A stretch of DNA of 64,000 bases, from assembly GCF_000686845.1 (NCBI RefSeq), contig NZ_JMLS01000001.1:434001-498000 (forward strand). The letters run 5' to 3'. The stretch's first letter is position 1. The number at the start of each line of letters is the position of its first letter. The notes under the pieces were generated by a model. That model saw nothing but the letters and a program-made list of their open reading frames with translations, did not search any database and was not told the DNA's origin. The translations under genes were made by a program, and so were the position numbers. This stretch comes from Paenibacillus sp. UNC451MF (GTDB lineage: Bacteria; Bacillota; Bacilli; Paenibacillales; NBRC-103111). Shown one piece after another: positions 9,902-24,131 of the stretch.

Positions 9902-9910
9902 CATATGTTA
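9902..9910 (+). promoter_or_regulatory. Sigma-K-like -10 element
   Basis: CATATGTTA matches the sigma-K -10 consensus CATANNNTA. No clear -35 AC at the usual spacing. It is 83 bases before the Arg-rich gene. The same nine bases occur on the other strand at 12328-12336 ahead of the small-protein operon, which strengthens both calls. Confidence 0.4.
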
Positions 9911-9992: not shown

Positions 9993-10295
9993 ATGCGATT
10001 AAGGAAAAGGCGTGTAGCAAAGAAAGCCGTTAAAAATAGAATCAGGGCCAGGAGGATTGTTCGCTCTAGGCTTAAGCGTAGAGGAAGACGTCCTGCATCT
10101 TCAATCAGAAGAAAACGTCTCATCACAAGAGCGAGAAGACGTCTTGTCTCTAGAGTAAGAAGAAGGCGTAGAGCCATAATTCGTAGAACTTCTTTGAAGA
10201 AAACATATCAGCAAGCCTATAACGAAGCATTTGACCAAAAATATAATGAAGGATTTAACGCAGGCTTTGCTCAAGGGCTTAAAGAGGGACAATAA
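9993..10295 (+). CDS. Arg-rich small basic protein with periodic Tyr/Phe-Gly tail (putative spore-surface protein)
   Basis: ATG 9993 with GGAGG upstream gives 100 residues (an upstream TTG at 9969 is less likely). Residues 1-70 hold 29 Arg and 8 Lys, with almost no acidic residues. Residues 72-99 are strictly periodic: an aromatic or Leu every four residues (Y72, Y76, F80, Y84, F88, F92, L96), and Gly at 87, 91, 95 and 99. The same Arg-rich plus Gly-periodic layout opens the 388-residue glycosyltransferase encoded at 13156-14322, and the Gly period opens all three CgeB proteins. It sits at the head of the spore-sugar locus behind a sigma-K-like element. I know no named family. A coat protein or scaffold is inferred. 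Confidence 0.75.
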   Translation: MRLRKRRVAKKAVKNRIRARRIVRSRLKRRGRRPASSIRRKRLITRARRRLVSRVRRRRRAIIRRTSLKKTYQQAYNEAFDQKYNEGFNAGFAQGLKEGQ

Positions 10296-10344
10296 TACAT
10301 TTGAAAGGAAATTAATTCCATATAAAAATGAAAGAGGCCTAAAT

Positions 10345-10407
10345 ATGCTGATTTCCGACAAAGCTAATAAGGAAGCTATGCCTGAAGAAGGAAGTCTGGG
10401 CTTATGA
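10345..10407 (+). CDS. Possible 20-residue leader peptide coupled to the next gene
   Basis: ATG 10345, with AGAGG seven bases upstream, opens a 20-codon frame ending in TGA at 10405-10407; the TGA overlaps the ATG of the reductase gene (ATGA). The peptide starts MLISDKANKEAMPEEG. The overlap suggests translational coupling, but so short a frame may arise by chance. Confidence 0.3.
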   Translation: MLISDKANKEAMPEEGSLGL

Positions 10408-11249
10408 GAATATTAATCATTGGCGGTGAAGAAATCGTCGGACGTGTGCTTGTTCCTTATTTGCTTCAGGAGACCCGGCATGAAGTGTTCTACACAACGA
10501 GACTAAAAGGAAAAGAGCGTAAGGGATTATATTTAAATCCGAGCGATGAAGCGATGGTTGAAAAATTAGTCGAGATCGTAACACCCGATGTCATCGTGAA
10601 TGGAACGAGTATTATGAATGATATGGCCCGGCTGCATGAAATTGAAGCATACCGGATTAACGGCTTGCTGCCTCATCAGCTAGCCCGGCTGGCGGATCAA
10701 CGTAAAATTCGTTTTATTCATATGAGCACGGATGGCGTATTCTCGGGGGTCCGAGGACATTATGAGGAACGCCATGTCCCGGAAGGAACCTCGGTTTATG
10801 CCAAGACCAAGGCACTTGGTGAAATTAAGGGCACACCCCATTTAACGATACGGGTATCGATTGTCGGACCGGAAGGGGGGGAGGGGATTGGACTTCTTGA
10901 TTGGTTTTTGAGGCAAAAGGAGGTCCGGGGCTTCATTAATGTTCCTTGGAACGGATTAACCTCCCTGGAAGTTGCGAAATTTATCCATTATGTACTGGAA
11001 CGTGGCCGAAGATTGAATGGAATTATTCATCTGACAGCCCCGGAAAGGATTAGTAAATATGATTTACTTTTACTAATCAGGAGCCTGTACGAAAGGTCGG
11101 ATATTACCATTCAGCCTAACGATGCGGTTGAATTGGATCGAACTCTTAAAAGCACGCGTCGGGACGTCGGTTACCGAGTCCCTTCTTACGTGGATATGTT
11201 GACGGAGCTGCGTGATTGGATGCGGAGTAATGCCACGCTTGCTAAGTGA
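10404..11249 (+). CDS. RmlD-like NAD(P)-dependent sugar-nucleotide reductase/epimerase
   Basis: 281 residues of the extended SDR fold. The N-terminal strand ILIIGGEEIVG replaces the usual GxxGxxG, STDGVFSG resembles the RmlD STDYVFDG motif, and YAKTK supplies the catalytic Tyr and Lys (YxxxK). It resembles dTDP-4-dehydrorhamnose reductase, but the canonical rmlD is a separate gene at 17206, so this enzyme probably reduces or epimerises another nucleotide sugar or has drifted in substrate. It lies downstream of the Arg-rich gene without a terminator and faces the minus-strand glycosyltransferase operon. A role in spore-surface sugar synthesis is inferred from position. Confidence 0.8.
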   Translation: MRILIIGGEEIVGRVLVPYLLQETRHEVFYTTRLKGKERKGLYLNPSDEAMVEKLVEIVTPDVIVNGTSIMNDMARLHEIEAYRINGLLPHQLARLADQRKIRFIHMSTDGVFSGVRGHYEERHVPEGTSVYAKTKALGEIKGTPHLTIRVSIVGPEGGEGIGLLDWFLRQKEVRGFINVPWNGLTSLEVAKFIHYVLERGRRLNGIIHLTAPERISKYDLLLLIRSLYERSDITIQPNDAVELDRTLKSTRRDVGYRVPSYVDMLTELRDWMRSNATLAK

Positions 11250-11272
11250 CAGCATGTTGGATGATATGACTC

Positions 11273-11318
11273 AAGGGGAGAATGAAGTGCTCGTGAGGCC
11301 AACCACGTTTCTCCCCTT
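11273..11318. terminator. Bidirectional terminator between convergent genes
   Basis: AAGGGGAGAA (11273-11282) pairs with TTCTCCCCTT (11309-11318). It lies between the plus-strand reductase stop and the minus-strand 99-residue gene stop, with A/T runs on both flanks. Confidence 0.7.
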
Positions 11319-11339
11319 TATTTGCAGCCAAAAGACCGA

Positions 11340-11639
11340 CTATCTCGAATTGGAAATAGTCGGCGGGAAACGGCGCAGCTTCCGGTTAAGCCAGGGCTTA
11401 ACCGGCTTGCCGCGCTTTTTTCTTCTTATTTTCAGCCCGATCATTTTGACGGCTATCTGTCGCTGGTAGTTGCTGATCGACTCGATCTGTTCAACAAGTC
11501 CTTTGGCTACGTAATGAGAGCCTTCAACAACTTCGGCCATGCTTTCCATAATGACGGCCAAGGCGCGCTGACTTCGGGCCAATGATTTTAAAATATGCAG
11601 CTTAAGCTTTAATTGAATGTCTTCCTCATGGCGACTCAT
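11340..11639 (-). CDS. Small helical protein with basic tail, spore-surface locus
   Basis: 99 residues, start ATG at 11639 with GGAGG upstream on the minus strand; the start overlaps the stop of the preceding gene by four bases. The first 65 residues look alpha-helical (LKLKLHILKSLARSQRALAV), then a strongly basic tail (KIRRKKRGKPVKP). There are no Cys, no signal peptide and no known domain. It is last of three small genes in one minus-strand operon beside the glycosyltransferases. I do not recognise a family; overlap, ribosome site and conserved context support a real gene. Confidence 0.65.
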   Translation of the reverse strand: MSRHEEDIQLKLKLHILKSLARSQRALAVIMESMAEVVEGSHYVAKGLVEQIESISNYQRQIAVKMIGLKIRRKKRGKPVKPWLNRKLRRFPPTISNSR

Positions 11640-11974
11640 CTGGAGTTTCCTCCGAAGAAATCGTTAAAATCACCCGATATTTCACTGGAGTTACTGCTAT
11701 CGCCGCTATCCCCTAATATGGCTTGCAAATTTTTCGTTAATGCCTGTTCCATCTTTGTTAAGCCGTCTATGACATCGAGCAGCTGCTCATGGATTTCAAT
11801 AGAACGCTTGACTTGGTCGTTGTGATCGCCTAGATGAGAGGAATTCAGGTGGGAACACATCCATCGGCTGGAGCGGGTTGCTTCAAACGCTTTGGCTTCC
11901 AAAATTAAGGAAATATTTTTTTGAAAGCTTGCTGACGATTGCAGCAGCCTGCGGTAAGAGTTCGTTCTGCTCAA
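11636..11974 (-). CDS. Small helical protein, spore-surface locus
   Basis: 112 residues from a TTG start with GAGGG six bases before it. It is mostly helical (SFQKNISLILEAKAFEA; HEQLLDVIDGLTKMEQALTK) with a Ser/Asp/Gly-rich tail (GDSGDSSNSSE...). The tail chemistry is opposite to the basic tail of the next protein, so the two may interact by charge (inference). It overlaps the downstream gene by ATGA, indicating coupled translation. No recognised domain. Confidence 0.6.
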   Translation of the reverse strand: MSRTNSYRRLLQSSASFQKNISLILEAKAFEATRSSRWMCSHLNSSHLGDHNDQVKRSIEIHEQLLDVIDGLTKMEQALTKNLQAILGDSGDSSNSSEISGDFNDFFGGNSR

Positions 11975-12006
11975 AGCTAACCCTCGCTTTCCTGATCAAC
12001 TATTCA

Positions 12007-12294
12007 TTACTCTTCGCTTGCAGAGTCTATTTCTTTCATTACCATAAGGAGAGTATCGCCCAAGGTGTCGGCTAAATCGGCCAGACTGTTGAGATAGGCG
12101 GCAATATTTTTCGTTACATTGAGCGTATTGTCCGTTAACATCTCTATGCTTTCGAAAGAAGGGTTTTCATGCGGAATGCCATGAATAAATTGAGCGACGT
12201 GTATTGCGATATGACGCTGAGCCTCCAGGATTTTAGACATTTCCAGCTGGGAGACGGACATATTTTCAATGATATTATCTATTTGCCGTTGCAT
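12007..12294 (-). CDS. Small helical protein, first gene of a three-gene operon
   Basis: 95 residues, ATG preceded by GGGAGGGCGG. The sequence is predicted helical throughout (SQLEMSKILEAQRHIAIHV; NIAAYLNSLADLADTLGDTL), acidic overall, with no Cys and no signal peptide. A sigma-K-like -10 element lies 34 bases upstream on the same strand. It probably belongs with the two following small genes. The family is not recognised; a coiled-coil coat or assembly factor is a guess from context. Confidence 0.6.
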   Translation of the reverse strand: MQRQIDNIIENMSVSQLEMSKILEAQRHIAIHVAQFIHGIPHENPSFESIEMLTDNTLNVTKNIAAYLNSLADLADTLGDTLLMVMKEIDSASEE

Positions 12295-12327
12295 TTCCCG
12301 CCCTCCCTTCTATATAGGTTTCCACCA

Positions 12328-12336
12328 TAACATATG
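12328..12336 (-). promoter_or_regulatory. Sigma-K-like -10 element for the small-protein operon
   Basis: The minus strand reads CATATGTTA, matching CATANNNTA, and identical to the element at 9902-9910. A start about 8-10 bases downstream would leave a roughly 25-base leader carrying the ribosome site. The -35 region is not convincing. Confidence 0.4.
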
Positions 12337-12422
12337 CGGACTTTTCCCGATAAACCACGGCATTAGCCCATCGTAGGCTGAGTGTCGAGAAATTTCATGG
12401 TTGTTAGCGGAGGATGCTTCTC

Positions 12423-13151
12423 TTAGATAAAAGTGTGCGGGTCGACACCCCATTTTTCAACAAATTGATTGTAGTTGTGTTGGATAAGCTGTTGGACCCT
12501 TTGCTGCCCTTCTTTCTCAAAGCTGGCACTGCCATGATGGAATATGAAGGTATCACCGGCAATCATCAGACGAAATCCGGCTTGTCGGGCACGATAGCAG
12601 TAATCGTCATCCTCCAGATGGCCAGGCGAGAATCTTTCATCGAGTATGCCGATTCGGTTCATAAGCTCTCTCTTGAACAAGAAGCAAATCCCTACGATAC
12701 GTTCAGTCTGCTGCCATTTTGTGTTGTCAGGCTGATTGTAACGCTGTGCCATCTCCGTCACATTAGTAAAAGGATCATTTATTTGCTGTTTTCCGCTGGC
12801 GTAATTGGTTACAGGACCGACGATGCCGATATCCACAGAGCTGTAAAGGCAGCGTAGCATATGGTCCAGCCAACGTGGCGTAAGCAGGGTGTCGTTATTT
12901 AGCAGAAGCAGGGCGTCGCCAACGGCAACACGGAGACCAAAGTTGCAGGCTGCTGGAAATCCCCGGTTAAAAGGCAAAGAAATCAGTTTTACTTTTTCTT
13001 TAACACAATAATCAACGGAACCGTCATTTGAGCCATTATCCACGACTATAATCTCGAAAGCGGTTTTGGTGTGTTCACGGATGGACTCAATACAAGGCTT
13101 CAGCACATGAAGTCCGTTAAAGTTAGGGATGATGATGCTGGTCATTTGCAT
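12423..13151 (-). CDS. GT2-family glycosyltransferase (rhamnosyltransferase-like)
   Basis: The frame is open to 13244, but ATG 13151 has GGAGG upstream and begins MQMTSIIIPNFNG, the canonical GT-A start; 242 residues. SIIIPNFNGLHVLKPCIESI, VVDNGSNDGS, a NNDT metal-binding motif (DxD equivalent) and EDDDYCYRARQAGF place it with WcaE/RfbF-like GT2 enzymes that transfer dTDP-rhamnose or similar sugars. It starts four bases after the stop of the preceding gene, so it is third in the minus-strand operon. Likely role: a sugar of the spore-surface glycan, with dTDP-rhamnose made by the divergent rml genes. Confidence 0.9.
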   Translation of the reverse strand: MQMTSIIIPNFNGLHVLKPCIESIREHTKTAFEIIVVDNGSNDGSVDYCVKEKVKLISLPFNRGFPAACNFGLRVAVGDALLLLNNDTLLTPRWLDHMLRCLYSSVDIGIVGPVTNYASGKQQINDPFTNVTEMAQRYNQPDNTKWQQTERIVGICFLFKRELMNRIGILDERFSPGHLEDDDYCYRARQAGFRLMIAGDTFIFHHGSASFEKEGQQRVQQLIQHNYNQFVEKWGVDPHTFI

Positions 13152-13155
13152 AGTG

Positions 13156-14322
13156 CTATCCTCCTGCAAAAGCTCTTTTACGTTGGGTATCCACAAAGTC
13201 CAACCGTTCTCCGGATCGCTCGCTCGCCAGCTTAATGGCTTCAATATGGTCTCCGATGATGAGATCCGCCATTTTATTTTTCATTCCGACGTTTCCTTCA
13301 CGAAGCTTGTTACGTCGAATGACATTTATACTGCCTCCTATACCGATGTTCAGCCTGTTTATCGAAGCTAGTACTTGGGCTTTTGGAGGGACGATCAACG
13401 GATGGGCACCGATGGTTTCCACCGTTTTGCGAGATAAGGCGTGAGGTACGGCTGTCATTGAATTGGCCGCAAGGTCGGGACGGTGGAGTGCAACATTCAA
13501 AAATTGCTTCATGTAGGTGACAGAATCCAAACGGGCAAATGAAGATAGAAAAGGAGTCACATCGTTCAATGCGATATCCAATCCTTTCTCAATCCCATAA
13601 ATGAAAGGAATCAGACTCTCCGCTTGAATGGGGATATCACCGTCAAGGAATAACAAAATATCCGATTGTGCCATATTAGCTCCAATAGCGCGTCCTACAT
13701 CATGTCCTACCGCCTGTGGATAAGAAATGACCACAGCATGGGATAGGTTCCGGGTGATTTCAAAGCTCCGGTCGGTGGAGCCGTTTACGACAACATACAC
13801 TTCATCCAGAGGAAGCCGGTTTAATTGGTGAAGAATAGCGCCAATCGTATCCTCTTCATTCTTAACCGTGACGATAGCGGCAATGGATTTATTCGTTGGA
13901 ACGAGCAGCCAGTCGTGGGGATGCCTGCCCTTTGCTTTTTGGAAGCCGTGTACGTAGCCTTTGGCTGCATCCGCATAATGCTGCCAAGGCTTCCGTGTAA
14001 TGTTTAAAGAAGGGATTCGCTTCATCCAAAAGCGATTTAATGCTTTTTTTTGAAATGGATCCTGATCGATAGAATATAGAGCTGCGTCCTCTTTGCCTGC
14101 TGCCTTGCCGGATTGGTAGGAGCGTGAGAAGATCCTGACAGTCTTCGTTAGGAAACGTTTTTTCCTAAAAGCTCGAGGGGAAGCTCTGCGCCTTGCTCTT
14201 TTTTTTAGCATCATTTTGCCTTTAATGACCTTACGGGTCCTTGTTCGTGTTCGTCTTCGCATTGAATAAGGTTTTCTTTTGGGTGCAGCTTTTTTTGTCA
14301 ATCTTTTTAAATTAGGTTGCAT
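13156..14322 (-). CDS. GT2-like glycosyltransferase with Arg-rich, Gly-periodic N-terminus
   Basis: ATG 14322 is chosen (GAGGTGA eight bases upstream; the frame is open to 14400 inside the previous gene), giving 388 residues. Residues 1-75 are Arg/Lys-rich (RRRTRTRTRK, KKRARRRASPR); SYQSGKAAGKEDA and YADAAKGYVHGFQKAKG carry Gly spaced by four. From about 155 comes a GT-A domain: AAIVTVKNEEDTIGA, VVVNGSTDRS, DILLFLDGDIP. It is about 50% similar by eye to the next enzyme upstream in its catalytic half (GHDVGR, PHALSRK, VPPKAQ, IIGDHIEAI). The N-terminus looks like a fusion with the type of module encoded alone at 9993. Confidence 0.85.
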   Translation of the reverse strand: MQPNLKRLTKKAAPKRKPYSMRRRTRTRTRKVIKGKMMLKKRARRRASPRAFRKKRFLTKTVRIFSRSYQSGKAAGKEDAALYSIDQDPFQKKALNRFWMKRIPSLNITRKPWQHYADAAKGYVHGFQKAKGRHPHDWLLVPTNKSIAAIVTVKNEEDTIGAILHQLNRLPLDEVYVVVNGSTDRSFEITRNLSHAVVISYPQAVGHDVGRAIGANMAQSDILLFLDGDIPIQAESLIPFIYGIEKGLDIALNDVTPFLSSFARLDSVTYMKQFLNVALHRPDLAANSMTAVPHALSRKTVETIGAHPLIVPPKAQVLASINRLNIGIGGSINVIRRNKLREGNVGMKNKMADLIIGDHIEAIKLASERSGERLDFVDTQRKRAFAGG

Positions 14323-14327
14323 TCTTA

Positions 14328-15098
14328 TCACCTCACTAAGGAGCGGTTTCTGGTTAAATCCGAATGATGTGCCCGTTCGTTGGTAGCTTGGGTCAACCAA
14401 TGTATGGCTTCCAGATGATCGCCTACTATTAAATCGCGAAGCGGATCGATTCCCTTGCTTCTGCGACGTATGGGATTGAGTGCACTGACATTGACATGAT
14501 GGATGGCCTGCACTCGAAGCTGTTTCACCATGGCTATCGTTTGCGCTTTGGGAGGGACGGACAGGTTCTCCGCACCTATCGCATTCAGAGCTTTACGACT
14601 TAGAGCATGAGGTATCGCAGTCATAGAAGATCCGCGCAGATCACCTCGCCCTAGCATACTGTTCAAAGCGTGCTTCGCCAGTACGACAGGATGCACTTTA
14701 TGCGTATGAACGGGACCGGAATATCGGTTCAGAGCAACATCTACACCTCGATGAACGGCATGAATAAAGGGAAAGAGCTGGACTGCCGGGATAACGATAT
14801 CACCATCTATAAACAATAAGATATCTCCTGAAGCATGCTGAGCGCCTACACTTCGTCCCACATCATGCCCTAGAGGATGCTCATAGCTTATGACCCTGGC
14901 CCCGCTGGCTTGAGCAATTTCTTTAGAGCCGTCGGTGGAACCGTTAGCTACCACAATGATTTCTAGAGGTTTGAGCTTTCGCGCTTCTCTTAGCACCGAA
15001 CGTAATGTTCGTTTCTCGTTCATCACCGGAATAATAACCGACACTCTGGAAGAGGATGGAGAGATGGCTGCTGACACGGACTTGCGTTGTCGCCGCAT
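14328..15098 (-). CDS. GT2-family glycosyltransferase
   Basis: 256 residues. After a short basic start (MRRQRKS) comes VSVIIPVMNEKRTL, VVANGSTDGSKE, GHDVGRSVGAQ and DILLFIDGDIVIP, a complete GT-A nucleotide-sugar site with DGD as the metal motif. It is a paralogue of the catalytic half of the next gene, sharing PHALSRKA, VPPKAQTI and IVGDHLEAIH. GAGGAG precedes the ATG. It is first of three glycosyltransferase genes, transcribed divergently from rmlA, with a sigma-K-like -10 in the gap. It likely decorates coat or exosporium proteins in the mother cell (inference). Confidence 0.88.
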   Translation of the reverse strand: MRRQRKSVSAAISPSSSRVSVIIPVMNEKRTLRSVLREARKLKPLEIIVVANGSTDGSKEIAQASGARVISYEHPLGHDVGRSVGAQHASGDILLFIDGDIVIPAVQLFPFIHAVHRGVDVALNRYSGPVHTHKVHPVVLAKHALNSMLGRGDLRGSSMTAIPHALSRKALNAIGAENLSVPPKAQTIAMVKQLRVQAIHHVNVSALNPIRRRSKGIDPLRDLIVGDHLEAIHWLTQATNERAHHSDLTRNRSLVR

Positions 15099-15164
15099 TT
15101 GTTATACAACTCCTCTCATCGGATATTGTGGCAAAGTTAGGTAAATATAGATTCGTACAATAGC

Positions 15165-15173
15165 TATCTTATG
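15165..15173 (-). promoter_or_regulatory. Sigma-K-like -10 element for the glycosyltransferase operon
   Basis: The minus strand reads CATAAGATA, matching CATANNNTA, 67 bases before the ATG at 15098. The -35 position lacks a clear AC. Supported mainly by recurrence at other operons in the locus. Confidence 0.35.
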
Positions 15174-15226
15174 TACTTTTGTCACGGGAGAGAGGGCTAT
15201 AGCATATAGGGGATGAAAAGGGCGGG

Positions 15227-15356
15227 GAATGTATGCATAGATGCATTCGAATGGGGAGGCAATTACATTATTATGACTGTCCGAAAAATTGGGGAGTCTG
15301 TTCGTTCGGGTGTCGGAGGTAAAGCTAATTGGGTACCGGACAACAGCCAATTTTTC
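15227..15356. other. Structured leader of the rml operon (366-base gap)
   Basis: The 366 bases between the divergent GT operon and rmlA hold a 22-bp imperfect palindrome at 15227-15248 (GAATG...CATTC) and a perfect 10-bp inverted repeat, GAAAAATTGG (15283-15292) and CCAATTTTTC (15347-15356), with an inner TGTCC/GGACA pair. The frame of rmlA stays open back to 15213, but no ribosome site supports that earlier start, so I treat it as leader. A sigma-K-like -10 for the plus strand was not found with confidence. Confidence 0.4.
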
Positions 15357-15464
15357 CTATTATACGGTATTCGTCTATATGCATATGTCTGTACGAGAAT
15401 ATCATTAACTAGAGTGTGTGCCGCAAGCTGGAGGCATAAGCCGAAAGGAAAGGAGTCGTGTGCA

Positions 15465-16187
15465 TTGAGAGGAGTTATTTTGGCCGGTGGTACGGGAACG
15501 AGATTGCGTCCACTGACGAACATTGTGAACAAACATCTGCTACCCGTAGGAAAATACCCGATGATTCATTACGCCATAGACAAAATGGTATCGCTCGGCA
15601 TCAAGCAAATTCTTCTGGTCATTGGCAAACAATCCGCCGGTTTATTTACAGAATATATAGGAAGCGGCCAGCAGTGGGGGGTCAACATATCATACAAAAT
15701 TCAGGAGCAGGCCGGAGGCATTGCGGAGGCGTTGGCTATGGCGGAGGATTTTATTCCGGCTGAAGAAAAGATGCTGGTCATTCTCGGAGACAATTTATTC
15801 CAGGATGATCTGCAGGAAGCGGTCGTGAAGTATAAGAAGCAACCACAGGGTGCGCATGTTTTTTTGAAAAAAGTGTCTGATCCTACCCGTTATGGGGTAC
15901 CCATATGGGAGGGAGAACGGATTGCCTTTATAGAAGAAAAGCCCGCAGATCCTCAGTCTCACTTCTGCGTCACAGGCATTTATATGTATGATTCGCAGGT
16001 TTTCGATATCATCCGTACGGTGAAGCCTTCTTCCAGAGGAGAACTGGAAATAACGGATGTGAATAACGCGTATGCTGCAAAACGCGAGCTATCTTACAGT
16101 ATTTTAACCGGTTGGTGGACCGACGCGGGGACGCATTCCTCCTTGCAGCAGGCCACCTCGCAGTTGACTGGACGTGGTGCGGAGTGA
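15465..16187 (+). CDS. rmlA: Glucose-1-phosphate thymidylyltransferase (SpsI/RmlA short form)
   Basis: TTG 15465 with AAAGGAG upstream gives 240 residues starting RGVILAGGTGTRLRPLT, the nucleotidyltransferase pyrophosphorylase signature. NKHLLPVGKYPMIHYAID, LGDNLF and EEKPADP are all in place. It makes dTDP-glucose from dTTP and glucose-1-phosphate, the first step of dTDP-rhamnose synthesis. It is the short SpsI-like type, not the ~290-residue RmlA. Its stop overlaps the start of rmlB by four bases. First gene of an apparent seven-gene operon through the three CgeB genes. Confidence 0.93.
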   Translation: MRGVILAGGTGTRLRPLTNIVNKHLLPVGKYPMIHYAIDKMVSLGIKQILLVIGKQSAGLFTEYIGSGQQWGVNISYKIQEQAGGIAEALAMAEDFIPAEEKMLVILGDNLFQDDLQEAVVKYKKQPQGAHVFLKKVSDPTRYGVPIWEGERIAFIEEKPADPQSHFCVTGIYMYDSQVFDIIRTVKPSSRGELEITDVNNAYAAKRELSYSILTGWWTDAGTHSSLQQATSQLTGRGAE

Positions 16188-17209
16188 CAACAGTATTGGT
16201 TACCGGGGGGATGGGGTTCATAGGGAGCAATTTCGTTCTGCATTGGATGAACAATCATCCGCAGGATCGAGTGTTAAACTATGATTTGCTTACTTATGCG
16301 GGGAATCCCTCTAATGTCTCGGCTGTACAGAAGCTGCCGAACTACCGATTTATAGAAGGCGATATCGCCGATTCGTCGCTTCTTGAGGAAGTGATGCTTG
16401 AAGAAAAGGTAGACACGGTTGTTCATTTCGCAGCGGAATCCCATGTGGACCGAAGTATTGAGGATCCATCCGTTTTTGTCCGTACGAACGTGCTAGGCAC
16501 ACAATGCTTATTGGAAGCGGCCAAGAAGTATGGCATAAGCCGATTTATCCATGTATCTACGGATGAAGTGTACGGAACGCTCGGGAGTGAAGGCTACTTT
16601 ACCGAGTTATCCCCGATTTCCCCGAATAGTCCATACTCTGCCAGTAAAGCCGGGTCCGATTTATTGGCACGAGCCTATTACGAAACGTATGGATTTCCTG
16701 TCATAATAACCCGCTGCTCCAACAATTACGGGCCGCACCAATATCCAGAGAAACTTATACCCAAAATTATTTCAAACGCATTACAGGATCAGCCTATTCC
16801 AGTATATGGTGACGGGCGAAACATAAGAGATTGGCTGCATGTGGAGGATCACTGCTCAGCAATAGAGCATGTAATAAATTGCGGTCGACCGGGTCAAGTA
16901 TACAACATCGGAGGAAACAGCGAACGCACGAATCTGGAGGTCGTGACAGAGATACTTCATCGCTTGGGCAAGCCGTTATCGTTAATTCAGTTTGTGGCTG
17001 ATCGACTTGGACATGATCGCAGATATGCTATAGATGCATCCAAAATCAGAGATGAGCTGGGATGGACACCTCATTATTCATTTCAAGAAGGAATAGCGCG
17101 AACCGTAGATTGGTATATCGAGCACGAGGATTGGTGGCGTCGGCTTATTCAAGAGGCTCCGAACCGTAACGGTAGGGAAGTCGATGACGGAGGTGAGCCA
17201 ATGACATGA
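16184..17209 (+). CDS. rmlB: dTDP-glucose 4,6-dehydratase
   Basis: GTG 16184 (overlapping the rmlA stop as GTGA) gives 341 residues. TGGMGFIGSNF is the NAD-binding Rossmann loop, HFAAESHVDRS, STDEVYG and YSASKAGSD (catalytic YxxxK) are RmlB hallmarks, and RCSNNYGPHQYPEKLIP is the substrate loop. It converts dTDP-glucose to dTDP-4-dehydro-6-deoxyglucose. Homologue of SpsJ in the sps locus of Bacillus subtilis. It overlaps rmlD by ATGA. Confidence 0.95.
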   Translation: MTTVLVTGGMGFIGSNFVLHWMNNHPQDRVLNYDLLTYAGNPSNVSAVQKLPNYRFIEGDIADSSLLEEVMLEEKVDTVVHFAAESHVDRSIEDPSVFVRTNVLGTQCLLEAAKKYGISRFIHVSTDEVYGTLGSEGYFTELSPISPNSPYSASKAGSDLLARAYYETYGFPVIITRCSNNYGPHQYPEKLIPKIISNALQDQPIPVYGDGRNIRDWLHVEDHCSAIEHVINCGRPGQVYNIGGNSERTNLEVVTEILHRLGKPLSLIQFVADRLGHDRRYAIDASKIRDELGWTPHYSFQEGIARTVDWYIEHEDWWRRLIQEAPNRNGREVDDGGEPMT

Positions 17210-18072
17210 AGGTATTGATAACTGGAGCTGGAGGCCAGCTCGGGTATGACTTAATTCGCGTCCTGTCGGGTAGTCATCAGGTTATCGCCATGACGAGGGC
17301 TGAATTGGACGTAGCGGATGAGGCAGCCGTAAATACTACTTTCAGACAGATGAAGCCGCAGGTTGTGATTCATGCTGCAGCTTATACGAATGTGGATCTG
17401 GCTGAGCAAGAGAGTGACAATGCTTATACGATCAATTCGATAGGGACAAGGAACGTAGCAATGGCGGCTGAAGAGCTTGGAGCCAAGCTGGTTCATATCA
17501 GCACCGATTATGTATTTGACGGCAGTAAGAGGACTCCGTACACAGAGACAGACCGCCCTAATCCACTAGGGGTATATGGAAATTCCAAGCTGCATGCAGA
17601 GAAGTTCGTAGAGCTGATTAGCGGGCAATATTTTATATTGCGCACTTCGTGGCTTTACGGCAAGAATGGCAGCAATTTTGTAACCAAAATGATTTCTCTG
17701 GGTCAGCAAAAAGAAGAGTTGTCCGTAGTTGCCGACCAGTTCGGTTCACCGACCTATACGCTCGATTTAGCTCGATTTATTGAGCATTTGATGCTGACGG
17801 ACCGCTATGGACTATACCACGTCTCCAATCGGGGATACTGCTCACGGTATGCATTTGCTCAGGCCATATTCCAGGCGTTGAAATGGAATCATATTCGGCT
17901 TGTTCCTATAAGCTCTTCAGGATTCCCGGCGGCGGCTCAGAGACCCGAGTATTCTGTTTTTGATGATACAGCTATCAGACTGAATCAGCTGCCAAGGCTG
18001 CGTAATTGGAAAGATGCGTTAAACGACTTCTTGCACAATGATTATGTATTGGAGGACAAAGGCGATGATTGA
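17206..18072 (+). CDS. rmlD: dTDP-4-dehydrorhamnose reductase
   Basis: 288 residues. ITGAGGQLGYDL is the NADPH loop, HAAAYTNVDLAEQE, STDYVFDGSKRTPYTE and YGNSKLHAE (YxxxK) are diagnostic of RmlD. It performs the last reduction to dTDP-L-rhamnose. The gene precedes rmlC here, as in spsK-spsL. Start and stop both overlap the neighbours (4 and 8 bases), pointing to tight translational coupling. Confidence 0.95.
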   Translation: MKVLITGAGGQLGYDLIRVLSGSHQVIAMTRAELDVADEAAVNTTFRQMKPQVVIHAAAYTNVDLAEQESDNAYTINSIGTRNVAMAAEELGAKLVHISTDYVFDGSKRTPYTETDRPNPLGVYGNSKLHAEKFVELISGQYFILRTSWLYGKNGSNFVTKMISLGQQKEELSVVADQFGSPTYTLDLARFIEHLMLTDRYGLYHVSNRGYCSRYAFAQAIFQALKWNHIRLVPISSSGFPAAAQRPEYSVFDDTAIRLNQLPRLRNWKDALNDFLHNDYVLEDKGDD

Positions 18073-18520
18073 AGGCGTTCAGAAAAAAAATCTCGTGCTG
18101 CACAGTGACGATAGAGGCTATTTTATGGAGCTGTTGCGGGAGGATGATCCTATTTACGGGCGTTTTGGGCAAGCATCCCTCTCCATGTCGTTTCCAGGTG
18201 TAATCAAAGCGTTCCATTACCATAAAAAGCAGGATGATATCTGGTTCTTCCCTTCGGGTCATGCTCAAGTGGTGCTTCATGATATGAGGCCCGAGTCCTC
18301 GACTTATAAACAGACGGATGTTTACTATATGGGGGACAATAATCGGTACCTGCTGTTCATCCCCCGTGGCGTTGCTCATGGTTACAGGGTATTAGGGAAT
18401 CAGCCTGCTACCATCGTATATTTTACGAATTTAGCTTACGATCCTGAGCAGCCGGACGAATACCGGATCGACTGGAACGATGAGTCCATCGGCTTTGATT
18501 GGCACACACGCAATCGTTAA
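18065..18520 (+). CDS. rmlC: dTDP-4-dehydrorhamnose 3,5-epimerase-like cupin (SpsL type)
   Basis: ATG 18065 preceded by GGAGG gives 151 residues, the SpsL size (classical RmlC is ~180). The cupin core shows KAFHYHKKQDDIWFFPSGHAQVVLHDMR, with the active-site His, and IPRGVAHGYRVLG. It epimerises C3 and C5 of the dTDP-4-keto sugar before RmlD acts. All four rhamnose genes are therefore present and contiguous. A long hairpin follows before the CgeB genes. Confidence 0.88.
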   Translation: MIEGVQKKNLVLHSDDRGYFMELLREDDPIYGRFGQASLSMSFPGVIKAFHYHKKQDDIWFFPSGHAQVVLHDMRPESSTYKQTDVYYMGDNNRYLLFIPRGVAHGYRVLGNQPATIVYFTNLAYDPEQPDEYRIDWNDESIGFDWHTRNR

Positions 18521-18536
18521 ATAATAAAAAAGTTTT

Positions 18537-18580
18537 CTACGGAAAACTGGGCTACTGCTTACGAAGATAGTTTTCCGTAG
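18537..18580. other. Hairpin within the rml-cgeB operon
   Basis: CTACGGAAAACT (18537-18548) and AGTTTTCCGTAG (18569-18580) are perfect 12-bp arms with a 20-base loop. There is no T-run on the plus strand, so it may be a processing or mRNA-stability element and not a terminator; on the minus strand it is followed by a short T-rich stretch. Confidence 0.55.
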
Positions 18581-18604
18581 GTGAACTTTTAGGAGGTCGA
18601 CATA

Positions 18605-19729
18605 GTGGCTGTCCATGTGAAGAAATCGCGTGCTCTAGCCTTAAGGCAAAGTGCCATAAAAGGACGAAAGGACGGTTATCGGCTTGGTCGAAGCCATGGT
18701 TACCATCACGGACGATGCCAGGCGGTGTTGGACATAGTTCCCCCGTGGCAGCCCGTAAAACGTGCGCTAAAGGTGATGTATGTAGAGGAGGGAACACCCG
18801 GCTTTCGAACACTGGATTTGGGTATTGCCCATTCACTTGGAGAGTTGGTACAGGAAGTTCTAGTCGTGCAGTCTACTTCGGATTTGACAGATATAGCACA
18901 GCAATTTAAACCGGATCTTGTATTCATTTTGAACGGTATTTTTCGTGTTTCCAATGAGCAGGTCGTTAAGCTTCGGCAGCATGGATTCCGAACGGCCATT
19001 TGGTTTATGGACGATCCGTATTTTACGGATGTTACGGCACAGATGGCTCCGTTGTACGATTATATTTTTACACATGAGCTAAATGCCGTTCCATTCTATA
19101 AGACTTTGGGATGCAATCATGTTTACTATTTGCCCTCCGGAGTGGACAGAGCTGTTGTAGCTCCTCGATTTGTCGAAAGATCATACCGGTCGGATGTATG
19201 CTTTATCGGCTCCGGTTTTCCGAACCGGCTCTCGTTTTTTAATAAAGTCATTCCAGCATTAAAGGGAGTTCATCTGTTCATGGCAGGCCATGGCTGGAAC
19301 CAACTGGGGCAGTACAAAGCCATTAAAAAGCATGTCAAGCTCCAAGGCGTTTTGTATGACGAGAACATCCGACATTACATCGGAGCCAAAATCGTTATCA
19401 ATTTGCATCGGTCACCATTGGAACGCCTGAACAGCCGGGGAATTCAGGCTATGTCCATTAATCCCAGAACCTTCGAAATTTGTGCAAGCGGAGCTTTGCA
19501 AATAACTGACGTCAGACAAGATTTATCCAGATACTACACGCCGGGGCAGGAGCTTGTTACGTTTGCAAGTCCTGAGGAGCTTGTTGATCGTATCCACTAT
19601 TATTTGCGGAATGAGGAAGAACGACGACGCATAGCCCTGAACGGCTTGTATAAAACAATGAGTCAGCACACGTATAGCCAGCGTCTGAATGGAATGCTGC
19701 ATACCATTTTCGATGAAACAGGTGGTTAG
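18605..19729 (+). CDS. CgeB-family glycosyltransferase, copy 1
   Basis: GTG 18605 with AGGAGG eight bases upstream gives 374 residues. Residues 20-36 have Gly at 20, 24, 28, 32 and 36 (GYRLGRSHGYHHGR), an exact four-residue period. Then a DUF3880-like N-terminal domain (PDLVFILNGIF, IWFMDDPYFTDV, DYIFTHELNAVPFY) and a C-terminal glycosyltransferase-4-like domain (DVCFIGSGFPNR, NPRTFEICASGALQITDVRQDL, YTPGQELVTFASPEEL, HTYSQRL). CgeB is a sigma-K-dependent spore maturation protein of B. subtilis. Together with copies 2 and 3 it probably transfers rhamnose-type sugars to the spore surface. Confidence 0.88.
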   Translation: MAVHVKKSRALALRQSAIKGRKDGYRLGRSHGYHHGRCQAVLDIVPPWQPVKRALKVMYVEEGTPGFRTLDLGIAHSLGELVQEVLVVQSTSDLTDIAQQFKPDLVFILNGIFRVSNEQVVKLRQHGFRTAIWFMDDPYFTDVTAQMAPLYDYIFTHELNAVPFYKTLGCNHVYYLPSGVDRAVVAPRFVERSYRSDVCFIGSGFPNRLSFFNKVIPALKGVHLFMAGHGWNQLGQYKAIKKHVKLQGVLYDENIRHYIGAKIVINLHRSPLERLNSRGIQAMSINPRTFEICASGALQITDVRQDLSRYYTPGQELVTFASPEELVDRIHYYLRNEEERRRIALNGLYKTMSQHTYSQRLNGMLHTIFDETGG

Positions 19730-19731
19730 GT

Positions 19732-20889
19732 ATGAGTAAAAAGCTTGTTCTTTTGGCGAGTTATAAAAAGGACACAGCCCAGACCTATAACAAAGGTGTC
19801 CTTGTAGGCAGACAAGAGGGCTTTCGCAAAGGCTGGAGTCGAGGATATCATCTTGGGAGAAGCGCAGTGATTTTGCAGAAATTACAAGAGGCGGCAGGAA
19901 TTCAACCTATTCGGGATCTTCACGTGCTGTTTGTTGTAGAAGCCTTTGAAGAAGGGCAATTTCACGAGCCTATCAACCAAGGCATCATCCGCGGCTTGCA
20001 GGGCCAGGTACGGCAAGTTTCCGTAGTATCTCCGCTAGATAACGTGGCAGAGCTGGCGAAGAAGGTACACCCTGATTTGGTTTTCGTTCTCAATGGCATT
20101 TTTCATTTGTCGATGCAACAACTTGCTGCTATACGTATGATGGGGATTCGGACCTGTGTTTGGATTACCGAGGACCCTTATTTTATTGATGTTACCTTAA
20201 CCAAAGCCCCTCACTTCGATTACGTATTCACCCATGAACTCGGAGCAATTCCATACTACCAGACAGCCGGATGCCAGCAGGTTCATTATTTGCCGCTTGC
20301 TGTGAATGAGGCTATGTTTCGACCGAGCCATGTGAGTTTGGCGTACAGTAAGGACATCTGCTTTATCGGTACCGCATTTTGGAATAGGGTGCGTTTCGTG
20401 GATAAGATATCCCCTTATTTGATGCACAAAAAAACGTTCATTTCAGGCTATTTGTGGGATCGGCTGAAAAGCTACCGTAAACTCGGCTCGAGAGTCAGTC
20501 TGGAGCGATGCTTAAGTGCTAAAGAGACAGCCTCCTACTACAATGGTTCCAAGATAGTTATCAATCTTCATCGCTCCCACGAGGATGATCAGCATAATTA
20601 CAATACAAGAAGAATCCGCGCGCTGTCCATTAACCCGAGAACGTTTGACATTTGTGCGTGCGGGGCGCTTCAGCTGACGGATATTCGGCATGATTTAAAG
20701 TACTTTTATACACCGGGCGAAGAGCTTGTCACCTACTCAAGTCCGGAGGAGCTGAGGGACAAATGCGAATATTATTTAACCCACGAAGAAGAGCGCAGAG
20801 AAATTGCGTTGCGGGGACTATATAAAACAATGAGTGAGCATACGTACAAACAAAGAATATCCCGATTGCTCAGCATTATGTACGGATAA
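19732..20889 (+). CDS. CgeB-family glycosyltransferase, copy 2
   Basis: 385 residues, ATG two bases after the copy 1 stop. Gly at 22, 26, 30, 34, 38 and 42 form the longest of the N-terminal runs (GVLVGRQEGFRKGWSRGYHLGR). The catalytic part repeats the copy 1 motifs: PDLVFVLNGIF, VWITEDPYFIDV, DICFIGTAFWNR, SKIVINLHRSHED, NPRTFDICACGALQLTDIRHDL, YTPGEELVTYSSPEEL. Sequence identity with copy 1 is high by eye across the C-terminal half, so tandem duplication is clear. Different acceptors or linkages for each copy are likely but unproven. Confidence 0.88.
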   Translation: MSKKLVLLASYKKDTAQTYNKGVLVGRQEGFRKGWSRGYHLGRSAVILQKLQEAAGIQPIRDLHVLFVVEAFEEGQFHEPINQGIIRGLQGQVRQVSVVSPLDNVAELAKKVHPDLVFVLNGIFHLSMQQLAAIRMMGIRTCVWITEDPYFIDVTLTKAPHFDYVFTHELGAIPYYQTAGCQQVHYLPLAVNEAMFRPSHVSLAYSKDICFIGTAFWNRVRFVDKISPYLMHKKTFISGYLWDRLKSYRKLGSRVSLERCLSAKETASYYNGSKIVINLHRSHEDDQHNYNTRRIRALSINPRTFDICACGALQLTDIRHDLKYFYTPGEELVTYSSPEELRDKCEYYLTHEEERREIALRGLYKTMSEHTYKQRISRLLSIMYG

Positions 20890-20927
20890 CAGACTGGCGT
20901 TTCAGTCATAAGTTAGGAGGGCCGCGA

Positions 20928-22049
20928 ATGGCTGTTTTAAGGAAGTTAAACCCGTCACAAAGGCGGGGGAAAATACTTGGAAGCAGGGCAGGCTACAAGC
21001 TGGGTTGGAGCTACGGTCAACGTTTGGGACGTAGCGAGGTTGTAGTAAGATCCAATGTTCCGTTCGTGTCGAAGGCTTGTGATCTCTCCGTGCTTTGTGT
21101 CACTTCGGGCATGGGACTTCCTTTCTCACCTATAGACCATGCAGTCATAGAAGCGCTGAAAAAGCAGGTGCGTGAGCTTCATATTTGCTCGCCCAAGGAT
21201 GACCTTGTTAAGCTAACCTCTCAATTAAGACCTCAGCTCGTGCTGGTGCTGTTCGGGATGCATGTAACAACGGAGGTTGTAAATTCCGTTAGAAGTCTCG
21301 GGAGCACTACAGCGATCTGGTATTCGGATGATCCGTACTACTCGGATATTACAAGGTTAACGGCAATCCATTACGATTATGTTTTTACCAATGAACTCAG
21401 CTGCATTGAGTTTTACCAGCTCCAAGGCTGCAGAAAAGTGTATCATTTACCCTTAGCGGTCGATTTGAATGTGTTTCGGCCCAAGAGGGTCGATACTGGA
21501 TATTTTAGCGATGTGTGCTTTATCGGGAGTGCTTATTGGCACAGGGTTGGCTTTTTTAACCGTATAGCTCCTTATTTGGCAAGAAGAAACGTGAAAATAT
21601 TTGGTTGGTGGTGGGAGCGCCTGGAGCAGTATTCCAAGCTGTCGCATAATATCCGTAATGAATGGTTGTCTCCGGAAGAAACGGACAAATATTATAACGG
21701 CGCCAAAATTGTGATTAACCTGCATCGCTCTCCCTATGATGAAACGTTTAATAAAAACAGCACGCGTGTCAAAGCTCTGTCCTCTAATCCGCGTACATTC
21801 GAAATTTGTGGCAGCGGAGCCTTCCAGTTGACGGATGCGCGACAAGATCTGCCTAATCTATATGGGCCCGGCCAAGAGCTGGCCACTTACTCCTCGGCCG
21901 AAGAACTGATAGAAAAAATTGAATACTACTTGCATCATGAGGAAGAGAGAAACGATCTTGCACTAAAAGGGCTGCAAAGAACACTCCGCGATCATACCTT
22001 TGATCACAGGGTTGCTGTATTACTTAATGTGTTAGTCGCGAGACGTTAA
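20928..22049 (+). CDS. CgeB-family glycosyltransferase, copy 3
   Basis: 373 residues, GGAGGG before the ATG. Gly at 14, 18, 22, 26, 30 and 34 (GSRAGYKLGWSYGQRLGR). PQLVLVLFGMH, IWYSDDPYYSDI, DVCFIGSAYWHR, AKIVINLHRSPYDE, NPRTFEICGSGAFQLTDARQDL and ATYSSAEELIEKIEYYL show the same two-domain plan as the other copies. It is the most diverged of the three near the N-terminus (no acidic EAFEEG-like stretch). A hairpin follows and probably ends the operon. Confidence 0.87.
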   Translation: MAVLRKLNPSQRRGKILGSRAGYKLGWSYGQRLGRSEVVVRSNVPFVSKACDLSVLCVTSGMGLPFSPIDHAVIEALKKQVRELHICSPKDDLVKLTSQLRPQLVLVLFGMHVTTEVVNSVRSLGSTTAIWYSDDPYYSDITRLTAIHYDYVFTNELSCIEFYQLQGCRKVYHLPLAVDLNVFRPKRVDTGYFSDVCFIGSAYWHRVGFFNRIAPYLARRNVKIFGWWWERLEQYSKLSHNIRNEWLSPEETDKYYNGAKIVINLHRSPYDETFNKNSTRVKALSSNPRTFEICGSGAFQLTDARQDLPNLYGPGQELATYSSAEELIEKIEYYLHHEEERNDLALKGLQRTLRDHTFDHRVAVLLNVLVARR

Positions 22050-22913: not shown

Positions 22914-24131
22914 ATGATGAAGAAAACGGTTATGGCTGCATTTATTGCTGGGGTCTCGTTATTTTCTGTAGTAGGTAGTGTTAATGCAGAGGTTAAATTC
23001 ACCGACTTAAACGGTCATTGGGCAAAAAAACAAATTGAATTTGCGGTTAATGACGGTTATGTAGATGGATATCCAGATGGTACTTTTAAACCAGATCAAA
23101 ATGTAAGCCGTGTGGAGTTTATGAAATTGGTTGTGGATGCACTTAAATTTAAAAAGCAGGATGCTTCCGGTGAATGGTATCAACCGTACGTCAATACAGC
23201 TGTTGCGAATGGCATACATCAATTGGATGAATTTGCTGTGGATCAATTGACCAAGCCTATCACTCGGGAAGAAATGGCTAGGATCGCTGTTCGTGCTACA
23301 GGAGAAGCTAATTACGATGCTAAGAAGTGGATGTATCTTGCAACATCAAAAGGAATCATCCAAGGACTGGATAACAAAGGTACGCTTGGTGAGGATCAGC
23401 CGACGACACGGGCGCAGGCGATTACCGTAATCGAACGGATACTCAAGATCAAGAGCGGAGAAAAAATCGCTTTGGATAAATATGCTAAGTATGCGGCTTC
23501 GAGAGCGGAGATTAACTGGCATAAGACGAATGTCTACACCATGGCACAAGAGTATTTTGGTTGGGGTAAAAGTATTGGTAACGAGTTTAAAGTTGATCGC
23601 TTGAAGTTTGAGAATGAAAAAGGAATGTCTGAAGTTGAAAAGTTTGTAGTTGTTGATATGGGGGACCCGGAAGACCCGTTCAGAGTGGAGATTCCGGATA
23701 ACATGTATTGGACTAATAAGGTCGGGAAACAGCGTATAAAGACTCAGGAGGTTCCATTAAACACTTATGCGTTTCTAAGTTTCAACCACTTTACGGTAAG
23801 TACGGATGTTCCAAAAAAATATTTTCATTATGCAATACTACACACAAGTCCTTTTATCAAGAACGGAGATTCATTGGATGAAAATGGTAACCTAAAGGAT
23901 GTGGTGACTTATGGGACTCTTGATGAGTATGGTAGCTTGCAGTCTGGTTTGATAGATTTGAAGACTGGTGATCATGATATGCGTATCATAACAGCGCAGC
24001 TCGTCCCAAAAATGTCTGGATTTGATGGTGCTTCCTGGGGAGTAGACAGGCAACCTTGCGTTGAACTTGGGGAAGGATCGACAGAAATTTCTGTGTTCGT
24101 CTCTGAAGTGCATCATGATTTGGGGGAATAG
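22914..24131 (+). CDS. SLH-domain surface protein
   Basis: 405 residues. Signal peptide MMKKTVMAAFIAGVSLFSVV...NA. Three S-layer-homology repeats occupy about residues 25-190: FTDLNGHWAKKQIEFAVNDG with YPDGTFKPDQNVSRVEFMKL, a second built round WYQPYVNTAVANGIHQ and ITREEMARIAVRA, and a third round WMYLATSKGIIQG and TTRAQAITVIERIL. These bind pyruvylated secondary cell-wall polymer and hold the protein on the wall. The C-terminal 200 residues are unfamiliar. It starts a three-gene operon with the two large secreted proteins; the next gene begins three bases after its stop. Confidence 0.9.
   Translation: MMKKTVMAAFIAGVSLFSVVGSVNAEVKFTDLNGHWAKKQIEFAVNDGYVDGYPDGTFKPDQNVSRVEFMKLVVDALKFKKQDASGEWYQPYVNTAVANGIHQLDEFAVDQLTKPITREEMARIAVRATGEANYDAKKWMYLATSKGIIQGLDNKGTLGEDQPTTRAQAITVIERILKIKSGEKIALDKYAKYAASRAEINWHKTNVYTMAQEYFGWGKSIGNEFKVDRLKFENEKGMSEVEKFVVVDMGDPEDPFRVEIPDNMYWTNKVGKQRIKTQEVPLNTYAFLSFNHFTVSTDVPKKYFHYAILHTSPFIKNGDSLDENGNLKDVVTYGTLDEYGSLQSGLIDLKTGDHDMRIITAQLVPKMSGFDGASWGVDRQPCVELGEGSTEISVFVSEVHHDLGE

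Follow-up and report, generated by a model that had tools for sequence, protein, structure and literature searches.

A glycine stripe shared by CgeB-type glycosyltransferases and a small basic protein in Paenibacillus, a possible helix-pairing tag

A stretch of 64,000 nucleotides from Paenibacillus sp. UNC451MF (contig NZ_JMLS01000001.1, positions 434,001 to 498,000; hereafter the window), part of a genome of 7.49 Mb, contains three CgeB-type glycosyltransferase genes and a gene for a small Arg-rich protein, all of which encode a segment with glycine at every fourth residue. This glycine stripe is a real and conserved use of a known helix type, and no description of it in spore glycosyltransferases was found in the open-access literature searched. 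Based on precedent, gene linkage and shared absence, we lean towards the stripe being a tag through which helices pair, bringing glycosyltransferases together with a small basic adaptor. The broader proposal, in which a lineage-specific and interchangeable GX3 tag joins the small basic adaptor and enzymes of several folds into a physical glycosylation hub at the spore surface, is tentative, and we place its chances a little below even.

The stripe in the window proteins

The original prediction placed one module, a glycine stripe with a period of four residues, on five proteins of the window. Stretches were scored as the number of glycines in register out of five positions. Counting on the sequences gave the claimed positions exactly for four proteins: residues 87, 91, 95 and 99 of the small Arg-rich protein (100 amino acids (aa), 9993..10295, plus strand, ATG at 9993), 20-36 of CgeB copy 1 (CgeB1, 18605..19729, plus strand), 22-42 of copy 2 (CgeB2, 19732..20889, plus strand) and 14-34 of copy 3 (CgeB3, 20928..22049, plus strand). 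Profile matches locate the three CgeB stripes at 18650-18733, 19795-19878 and 20964-21050, respectively. Each CgeB copy has the domains PF12996 and PF13524 and passes both Pfam cut-offs (44.9-61.2 bits and 97-111.5 bits, respectively). By eye, a ribosome-binding-like AGGAGG precedes the GTG start of CgeB1 at 18605, and a site of this kind is also seen before the CgeB3 start. The small protein has a basic N-terminal tail and a C-terminal stripe helix (10206..10292, plus strand; profile match with E 2.2e-11 in a whole-genome search); a basic Arg/Lys-rich tail often precedes the stripe.

Among the 194 window open reading frames (ORFs) of at least 60 aa, only the three CgeB copies reach 5/5 at period 4; the Arg-rich protein and six further ORFs reach 4/5. 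When whole ORFs were shuffled 20,000 times, the observed score was reached 3 times for the Arg-rich protein and 11, 6 and 3 times for CgeB1, CgeB2 and CgeB3. The fifth proposed member, a GT2 enzyme of 388 residues with a basic tail (13156..14400, minus strand; PF00535, E 1.1e-13), has at most 2/5 glycines in register in the first 170 residues of its ORF, a score matched by 15,022 of 20,000 shuffles, which rules it out as a full stripe member. Therefore, four of the five proposed members stand. The GT2 segments named in the prediction, GKAAGK and GYVHGFQKAKG, were found again in close orthologues (L051 and L053; L and G numbers are our handles for loci and genomes) and more loosely in L066, and for this reason they are kept as what may be, at most, a degenerate version of the stripe. 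The general rule for GX3 repeats, Gly or Ala at every fourth residue for at least four turns, holds for the four proteins and not for the GT2 enzyme.

Conservation of the CgeB stripe

Relatives were searched with two profiles, A2 for the CgeB stripe and A3 for the small-protein stripe. Both include segments of the window and of relatives as rows; a match in the own genome or in those relatives is therefore built in. Gene classes were tabulated from greedy, non-overlapping ORFs of at least 55 aa in the named loci. Related species are not independent counts, and some named loci apparently come from the same genomes as in the other sample (e.g. L093 and G009). The nearest relatives of the window CgeB in named genomes are from Paenibacillus.

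A sample of 40 relative loci of up to 20 kb, together with part of the window, has 80 CgeB-like ORFs, and 68 of them score 4/5 glycines or more at period 4 in their first 100 residues, a score that 102 of 4432 other ORFs reach over their whole length. At periods 3, 5, 6 and 7, the CgeB-like ORFs reach it in 0, 0, 0 and 2 cases. Similarly, 138 of the 148 CgeB genes in 80 named loci score at least 4/5, compared to 0, 0, 0 and 1 at the same control periods; at periods 2 and 8, whose registers overlap with that of period 4, the counts are 16 and 18. The non-CgeB genes of these loci reach 5/5 in 46 of 1594 cases at period 4 and in 3-4 at periods 3, 5, 6 and 7. After removal of five classes (CgeB, the small protein, long GT2, GT-D-like and GT4-like enzymes), period 4 gives 4/5 in 50 of 1461 genes and 5/5 in 6, and other periods give 42-64 and 3-4, respectively. 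Of 395 genes in 400 kb taken from elsewhere in the own genome, 18 score 4/5 at period 4 and 2 score 5/5, with 13-19 and 0-1 at other periods.

The consensus of 27 CgeB segments is GxxxGYRxGxxxGYHLGRCEA. Residues G30, G34, G38 and G42 of CgeB2 are invariant in 23 of 23 sequences; among 50 sequences, G34 and G38 are invariant, like residues of the catalytic domain, and G30 and G42 are present in 90% or more. As proposed, the module lies outside the catalytic domains and is conserved in orthologues. Its absence from orthologues of related species, which would have spoken against a shared module, did not occur within the family.

Carriers other than CgeB

The stripe is also found on glycosyltransferases of other kinds. 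Long GT2 enzymes (at least 430 aa) carry it in 32 of 37 cases, mostly in the region that separates a basic tail from the GT2 domain. All seven examples examined are PF00535; no stripe was found in the first 150 residues of 96 shorter GT2 enzymes. Parts of the GT-D-like class (PF22882 in 5/5 examples) and of the GT4-like class (2/5 examples over a Pfam cut-off) carry it as well, both classes being BLAST clusters that include members without an N-terminal extension.

The small basic protein was found in 72 of 80 named CgeB loci as 75 copies (75 of 95 A3 matches were kept, at most 240 aa), every one on the strand of the CgeB match. Its median distance to the match is 204 bp, a value that includes a placeholder for L106 and L126, where the gene list has no CgeB; 21 copies are within 100 bp. 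Before the stripe, 25-57% of the residues are Arg or Lys. The small protein apparently lies about 17-20 kb from CgeB in L092-L094, beyond the fetched DNA, and 34 kb away in L121, and it is apparently present with a weak score in L157. It was not found in the named CgeB loci L107, L110 and L139.

These carriers bear on the question of whether each glycosyltransferase and small protein pairs just with itself or with a tandem paralogue, as proposed for FliH, with no shared scaffold. CgeB genes are often tandem pairs, with a triplet in the window, and FliH, a bacterial GX3 protein, is a dimer whose repeats are proposed in passages of PMC2674601 to pair helices. However, pure self-pairing would not readily account for the stripes on enzymes of several folds or for a small protein with no catalytic part that accompanies the enzymes in 72 of the 80 loci. 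We consider it unlikely.

Predicted structure, composition and charge

AlphaFold2 predicts one helix at residues 3-54 of CgeB2, with the stripe inside it, followed by the GT-B body (mean predicted local distance difference test (pLDDT) 92.5; blocks of residues 21-50 at 88-98). In the small protein, a helix is predicted at residues 35-99, and the blocks of the last 30 residues have pLDDT 95, 97 and 93. These predictions agree with the claim of a helical module; as models of single chains, they cannot reveal pairing. Foldseek matched the CgeB2 model to glycosyltransferases such as MshA and BshA (E 1e-12 to 1e-11 and TM-score 0.41-0.63 in the first rows), in a listing that is silent on whether the extra helix is aligned. 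By sequence, no relative in the PDB was found for A2 at E up to 1 or for profile A5 at E up to 0.01. A PDB match of A3 to just 12 residues of histone demethylases (E 0.29-0.61) was set aside. Over the stripe, the window proteins remain below every family cut-off, consistent with the earlier statement that the module has no named family.

Another possible explanation is that the stripe helix is an internal part of the enzymes, such as a cap or spacer, or a convergent low-complexity helix that has no partner. In its favour, the predicted CgeB2 helix continues into the GT-B body with pLDDT 98 at residues 41-50, and A2 and A3 have a different consensus and align over just 14 columns. On the other hand, CgeB proteins of the other families examined do not have the stripe and the small protein has it without an enzyme. 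In addition, once the five classes are removed, 4/5 stretches in these loci are no more frequent at period 4 than at other periods (50 versus 42-64 of 1461). This explanation is quite unlikely.

The residue after a stripe glycine is Tyr, Phe or Trp at a fraction of about 0.46 in CgeB, and Tyr or Phe at 0.85 in the small proteins; Phe follows Gly at 0.45 and Tyr at 0.40. These values are relevant to the idea that the small basic protein is an acceptor or target of the glycosyltransferases, in a position like that of CgeA, with the stripe as a substrate recognition signal. The small protein is mostly close to CgeB, as cgeA is listed with cgeB in cgeAB (passages of PMC7439481), and CgeA is proposed as a glycosylation target or hub in passages of PMC10502511. 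However, a pure substrate signal leaves the stripe on the enzymes unexplained, and a Tyr acceptor is unlikely because Phe follows Gly as often as Tyr does. Overall, we regard an acceptor role as very unlikely.

The net charge of the best 20-residue stretch was compared under a looser stripe rule, which retains 142 of 148 CgeB, 74 of 75 small proteins, 36 of 37 long GT2, 20 of 39 GT-D-like and 7 of 13 GT4-like enzymes. Its mean is +0.90 in CgeB (standard deviation 1.79, n = 142) and -2.16 in the small proteins (standard deviation 1.46, n = 74), and the CgeB stripe is the more positive of the two in 64 of 69 loci. This contrast weakly favours heterotypic pairing.

Specificity and taxonomic range

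In the own genome, A2 finds the three CgeB copies at E < 1e-9 with the next match at 0.07, and A3 finds the Arg-rich protein at 2e-11 with the next match at 0.49. Since the window proteins are rows of the profiles, these searches count for the absence of further strong matches. Among the matches listed for 99 family genomes at E up to 0.01, A3 is present in 83, A2 in 81 and both in 80. The best A3 match is at most 5 kb from an A2 match in 72 of the 83 genomes, and at least 102 of the 117 A3 matches are within 20 kb of an A2 match and at least 96 within 5 kb; these distances are upper limits among the matches listed, with some repeat matches per genome left out. G087, the only genome with A2 and no A3, has a weakly scoring small gene (E 0.18) approximately 80 bp from its CgeB.

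Surroundings were fetched for 11 of the 15 A3 matches beyond 20 kb. L285 is a striped GT2 enzyme with a small striped ORF overlapping its start, L286 is a striped GT4-like enzyme below the Pfam cut-off, and G005 and G023 are small proteins of the usual kind. The others are L289, which passes the Yae1_N cut-off, L291 and L292, which are low-complexity repeats, L287, a 58-aa ORF with no family, and L293, to which no class was assigned. The expectation that the module recurs only at one type of locus was thus largely borne out by the 102 of 117 matches near CgeB, although a few off-locus matches are unrelated proteins.

Across 398 genomes of the phylum, A3 matches at E up to 0.001 occur in 45, and matches at E < 1e-10 in 6, all from the order. 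When ten weaker matches outside the order were tested, six were FliH by Pfam, one passed the Yae1_N cut-off and three were neither. Occurrence in unrelated proteins, which had been named as a reason for doubt if common, is therefore weak and consists of GX3 repeats in FliH and Yae1-Lto1 and the few off-locus matches.

CgeB relatives (E up to 1e-25) were found in 25 of 200 genomes of the class, 16 from the order and 9 outside it. Outside the order, the main CgeB matches start at profile position 43-55, approximately at the catalytic domain; G560, with an open frame of 744 codons, and G630, with pieces, are the exceptions. A 4-of-5 stretch in L247 (734 aa, outside the order) precedes the likely CgeB start and was taken as read-through. 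Within the order, family f8 has CgeB without the stripe. No small protein was found at E up to 0.001 in the 13 genomes of other families with a stripeless CgeB (G560 being doubtful). At E up to 1, A3 matches appear in 3 of these 13, and the best (0.0023) is in a frame antisense to a Gly-rich repeat. The sister family f10 has the small protein in all five sampled genomes with CgeB. Based on these 13 genomes and f10, the stripe and the small protein are mostly either both present or both absent; G005 is an exception.

GX3 repeats were also seen in other proteins of the phylum. Small proteins of 104-123 aa with long GX3 repeats are encoded at L219:1432-1803, L229:1276-1590 and L289:9733-10092. 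With 36.5 and 31.1 bits, those of L219 and L289 exceed the Yae1_N cut-off of Pfam, and all three may be bacterial deca-GX3 proteins. Further GX3-repeat proteins are at L207:1036-1899 and L208:1150-1899; the L207 repeat follows a copper amine oxidase N-terminal domain, which makes this protein another unrelated carrier.

Proposed role

In the reading that we favour, the stripe would be a soluble GX3-repeat helix through which proteins pair. Within Paenibacillus and its order, it lies at the N-terminus of several glycosyltransferases of a probable spore-surface glycan locus (CgeB-type enzymes, long GT2 enzymes and part of the GT-D-like and GT4-like enzymes) and at the C-terminus of the small protein, the other half of which is a strongly basic tail. 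The glycine face would allow close helix packing and neighbouring aromatic residues would fill the interface, so that each enzyme could bind the small protein or another enzyme. An acidic surface or polymer would anchor the assembly through its basic tails. What the data show is the module, its recurrence and conservation, the neighbouring genes and a predicted helix; pairing, the choice of partner, what the basic tail does and a link to sporulation are inferred.

Several observations weigh against the pairing tag. By the strict rule, only part of the GT-D-like (14/39) and GT4-like (7/13) classes have the stripe, and 10 of the 148 CgeB genes score below 4/5, some being fragments or without the extension. 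In f10, one copy of the tandem CgeB has 5/5 and the other just 3/5 in 15 of 15 loci, and in G005 no CgeB match accompanies the small protein. A2 and A3 align with a probability of 72%, over 14 columns, which is too little to establish a single common origin of the stripes. A four-residue repeat drifts by about 40 degrees per helix step, and therefore the glycines do not form a single flat face. For the small protein, the five models have mean pLDDT of 72-88 and a predicted TM-score (pTM) of 0.39. A charge match between the partners of each locus was tried and gave no correlation (Spearman 0.16, P 0.20), and in the window itself the small-protein stretch has a net charge of 0 and the CgeB stretches +3 to +4.

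If enzymes and a small adaptor do share a pairing helix, this would offer a physical model that point mutations could test directly. It would also add to FliH and Yae1-Lto1 a case in which GX3 helices serve as a tag that can be transferred between unrelated enzymes.

Genes around the stripe proteins

Between the Arg-rich gene and the CgeB copies are four dTDP-rhamnose-type genes identified by Pfam (nucleotidyltransferase, dehydratase, RmlD and 3,5-epimerase; 15213..18520, plus strand), none with the stripe. They are likely the counterpart of spsIJKL, the role of which is taken from passages of PMC10502511. Because they adjoin CgeB, the locus is, by analogy, probably a spore-surface glycan locus.

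Shortly after the CgeB genes are an SLH-domain protein (22914-24131, plus strand) and a large protein with CARDB and PKD matches (24135-26795, plus strand). In G005, an ORF that is SLH-like by eye (L283:8388-9596) adjoins the small protein. The SLH neighbour in the window and its counterpart in G005 could mean that the glycans made by the locus belong to the vegetative surface or S-layer and that the module is unrelated to spores. Sigma-K-like -10 boxes, which are not above chance in the window, would agree with this. However, dTDP-rhamnose genes and CgeB are both named as B. subtilis spore-crust genes in passages of PMC10502511, and a vegetative role is unlikely.

One sigma-K-like -10 box, CATATGTTA, is at 9902-9910 (plus strand), about 80 bases before the small-protein start, judged by the -10 consensus. 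It was rejected as a signal, since the window has 38 such boxes and 32.6 were expected. Three short ORFs (99, 112 and 95 aa) at 11340-12294 on the minus strand are below every Pfam cut-off; the third resembles, by eye, a 96-aa ORF at L283:10915-11205, near the small stripe protein of G005.

Comparison with known systems

Passages of PMC2674601 describe GX3 repeats in FliH/YscL, with GYxxGFxxG twice as common as expected, and report GxxxGxxxGxxxG in 7 of 85,770 PDB helices. Like FliH/YscL (PF02108, TIGR03825), the stripe has glycine at period 4 and frequent GYxxGFxxG; unlike FliH, it is in different genes with different neighbours. The FliH model NF009925 weakly matches 34 of 35 small proteins (E up to 0.1, best 7e-5), with the repeat covered in the one member shown. 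No FliH domain was found: the window proteins score 11-21 bits compared to model cut-offs of 149-293, and the small window protein scores no higher than 20.7 bits where the cut-offs are 180 or more.

According to passages of PMC4523923, the Yae1-Lto1 complex depends on a deca-GX3 stretch and acts as an adaptor, and exchanges of Lto1 glycines weaken the pairing. The stripe resembles this system (PF09811, Yae1_N) as a soluble stretch with glycine every four residues. It differs in having approximately four to seven glycines in register (four to six in the window, up to seven in relatives) rather than a deca-GX3 stretch, and in being attached to glycosyltransferases and basic tails with no Fe-S context. 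Yae1_N matches were obtained in 31 of 35 small proteins at E up to 0.1 (best 1.6e-4). In the window, the Yae1_N cut-off of 27.5 bits was missed by the Arg-rich protein (14.7-15.1) and CgeB2 (13.2), and CgeB1 and CgeB3 were absent from the matches listed.

A third comparison is with CgeA-CgeB of B. subtilis, made here by published descriptions. Passages of PMC7439481 state that the cgeAB-cgeCDE and sps genes are involved in crust morphology and surface. Passages of PMC10502511 call the anchoring of the crust open, mention nine glycosyltransferases thought to be involved and propose CgeA as a glycosylation hub without a mechanism. As in B. subtilis, a CgeB-type glycosyltransferase stands beside the gene of a small protein in a spore-surface glycan context. 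The difference lies in the CgeB start: in the Bacilli families examined outside the order, CgeB begins with the catalytic domain and has no stripe, whereas the CgeB of Paenibacillus and its relatives has the glycine stripe ahead of that domain.

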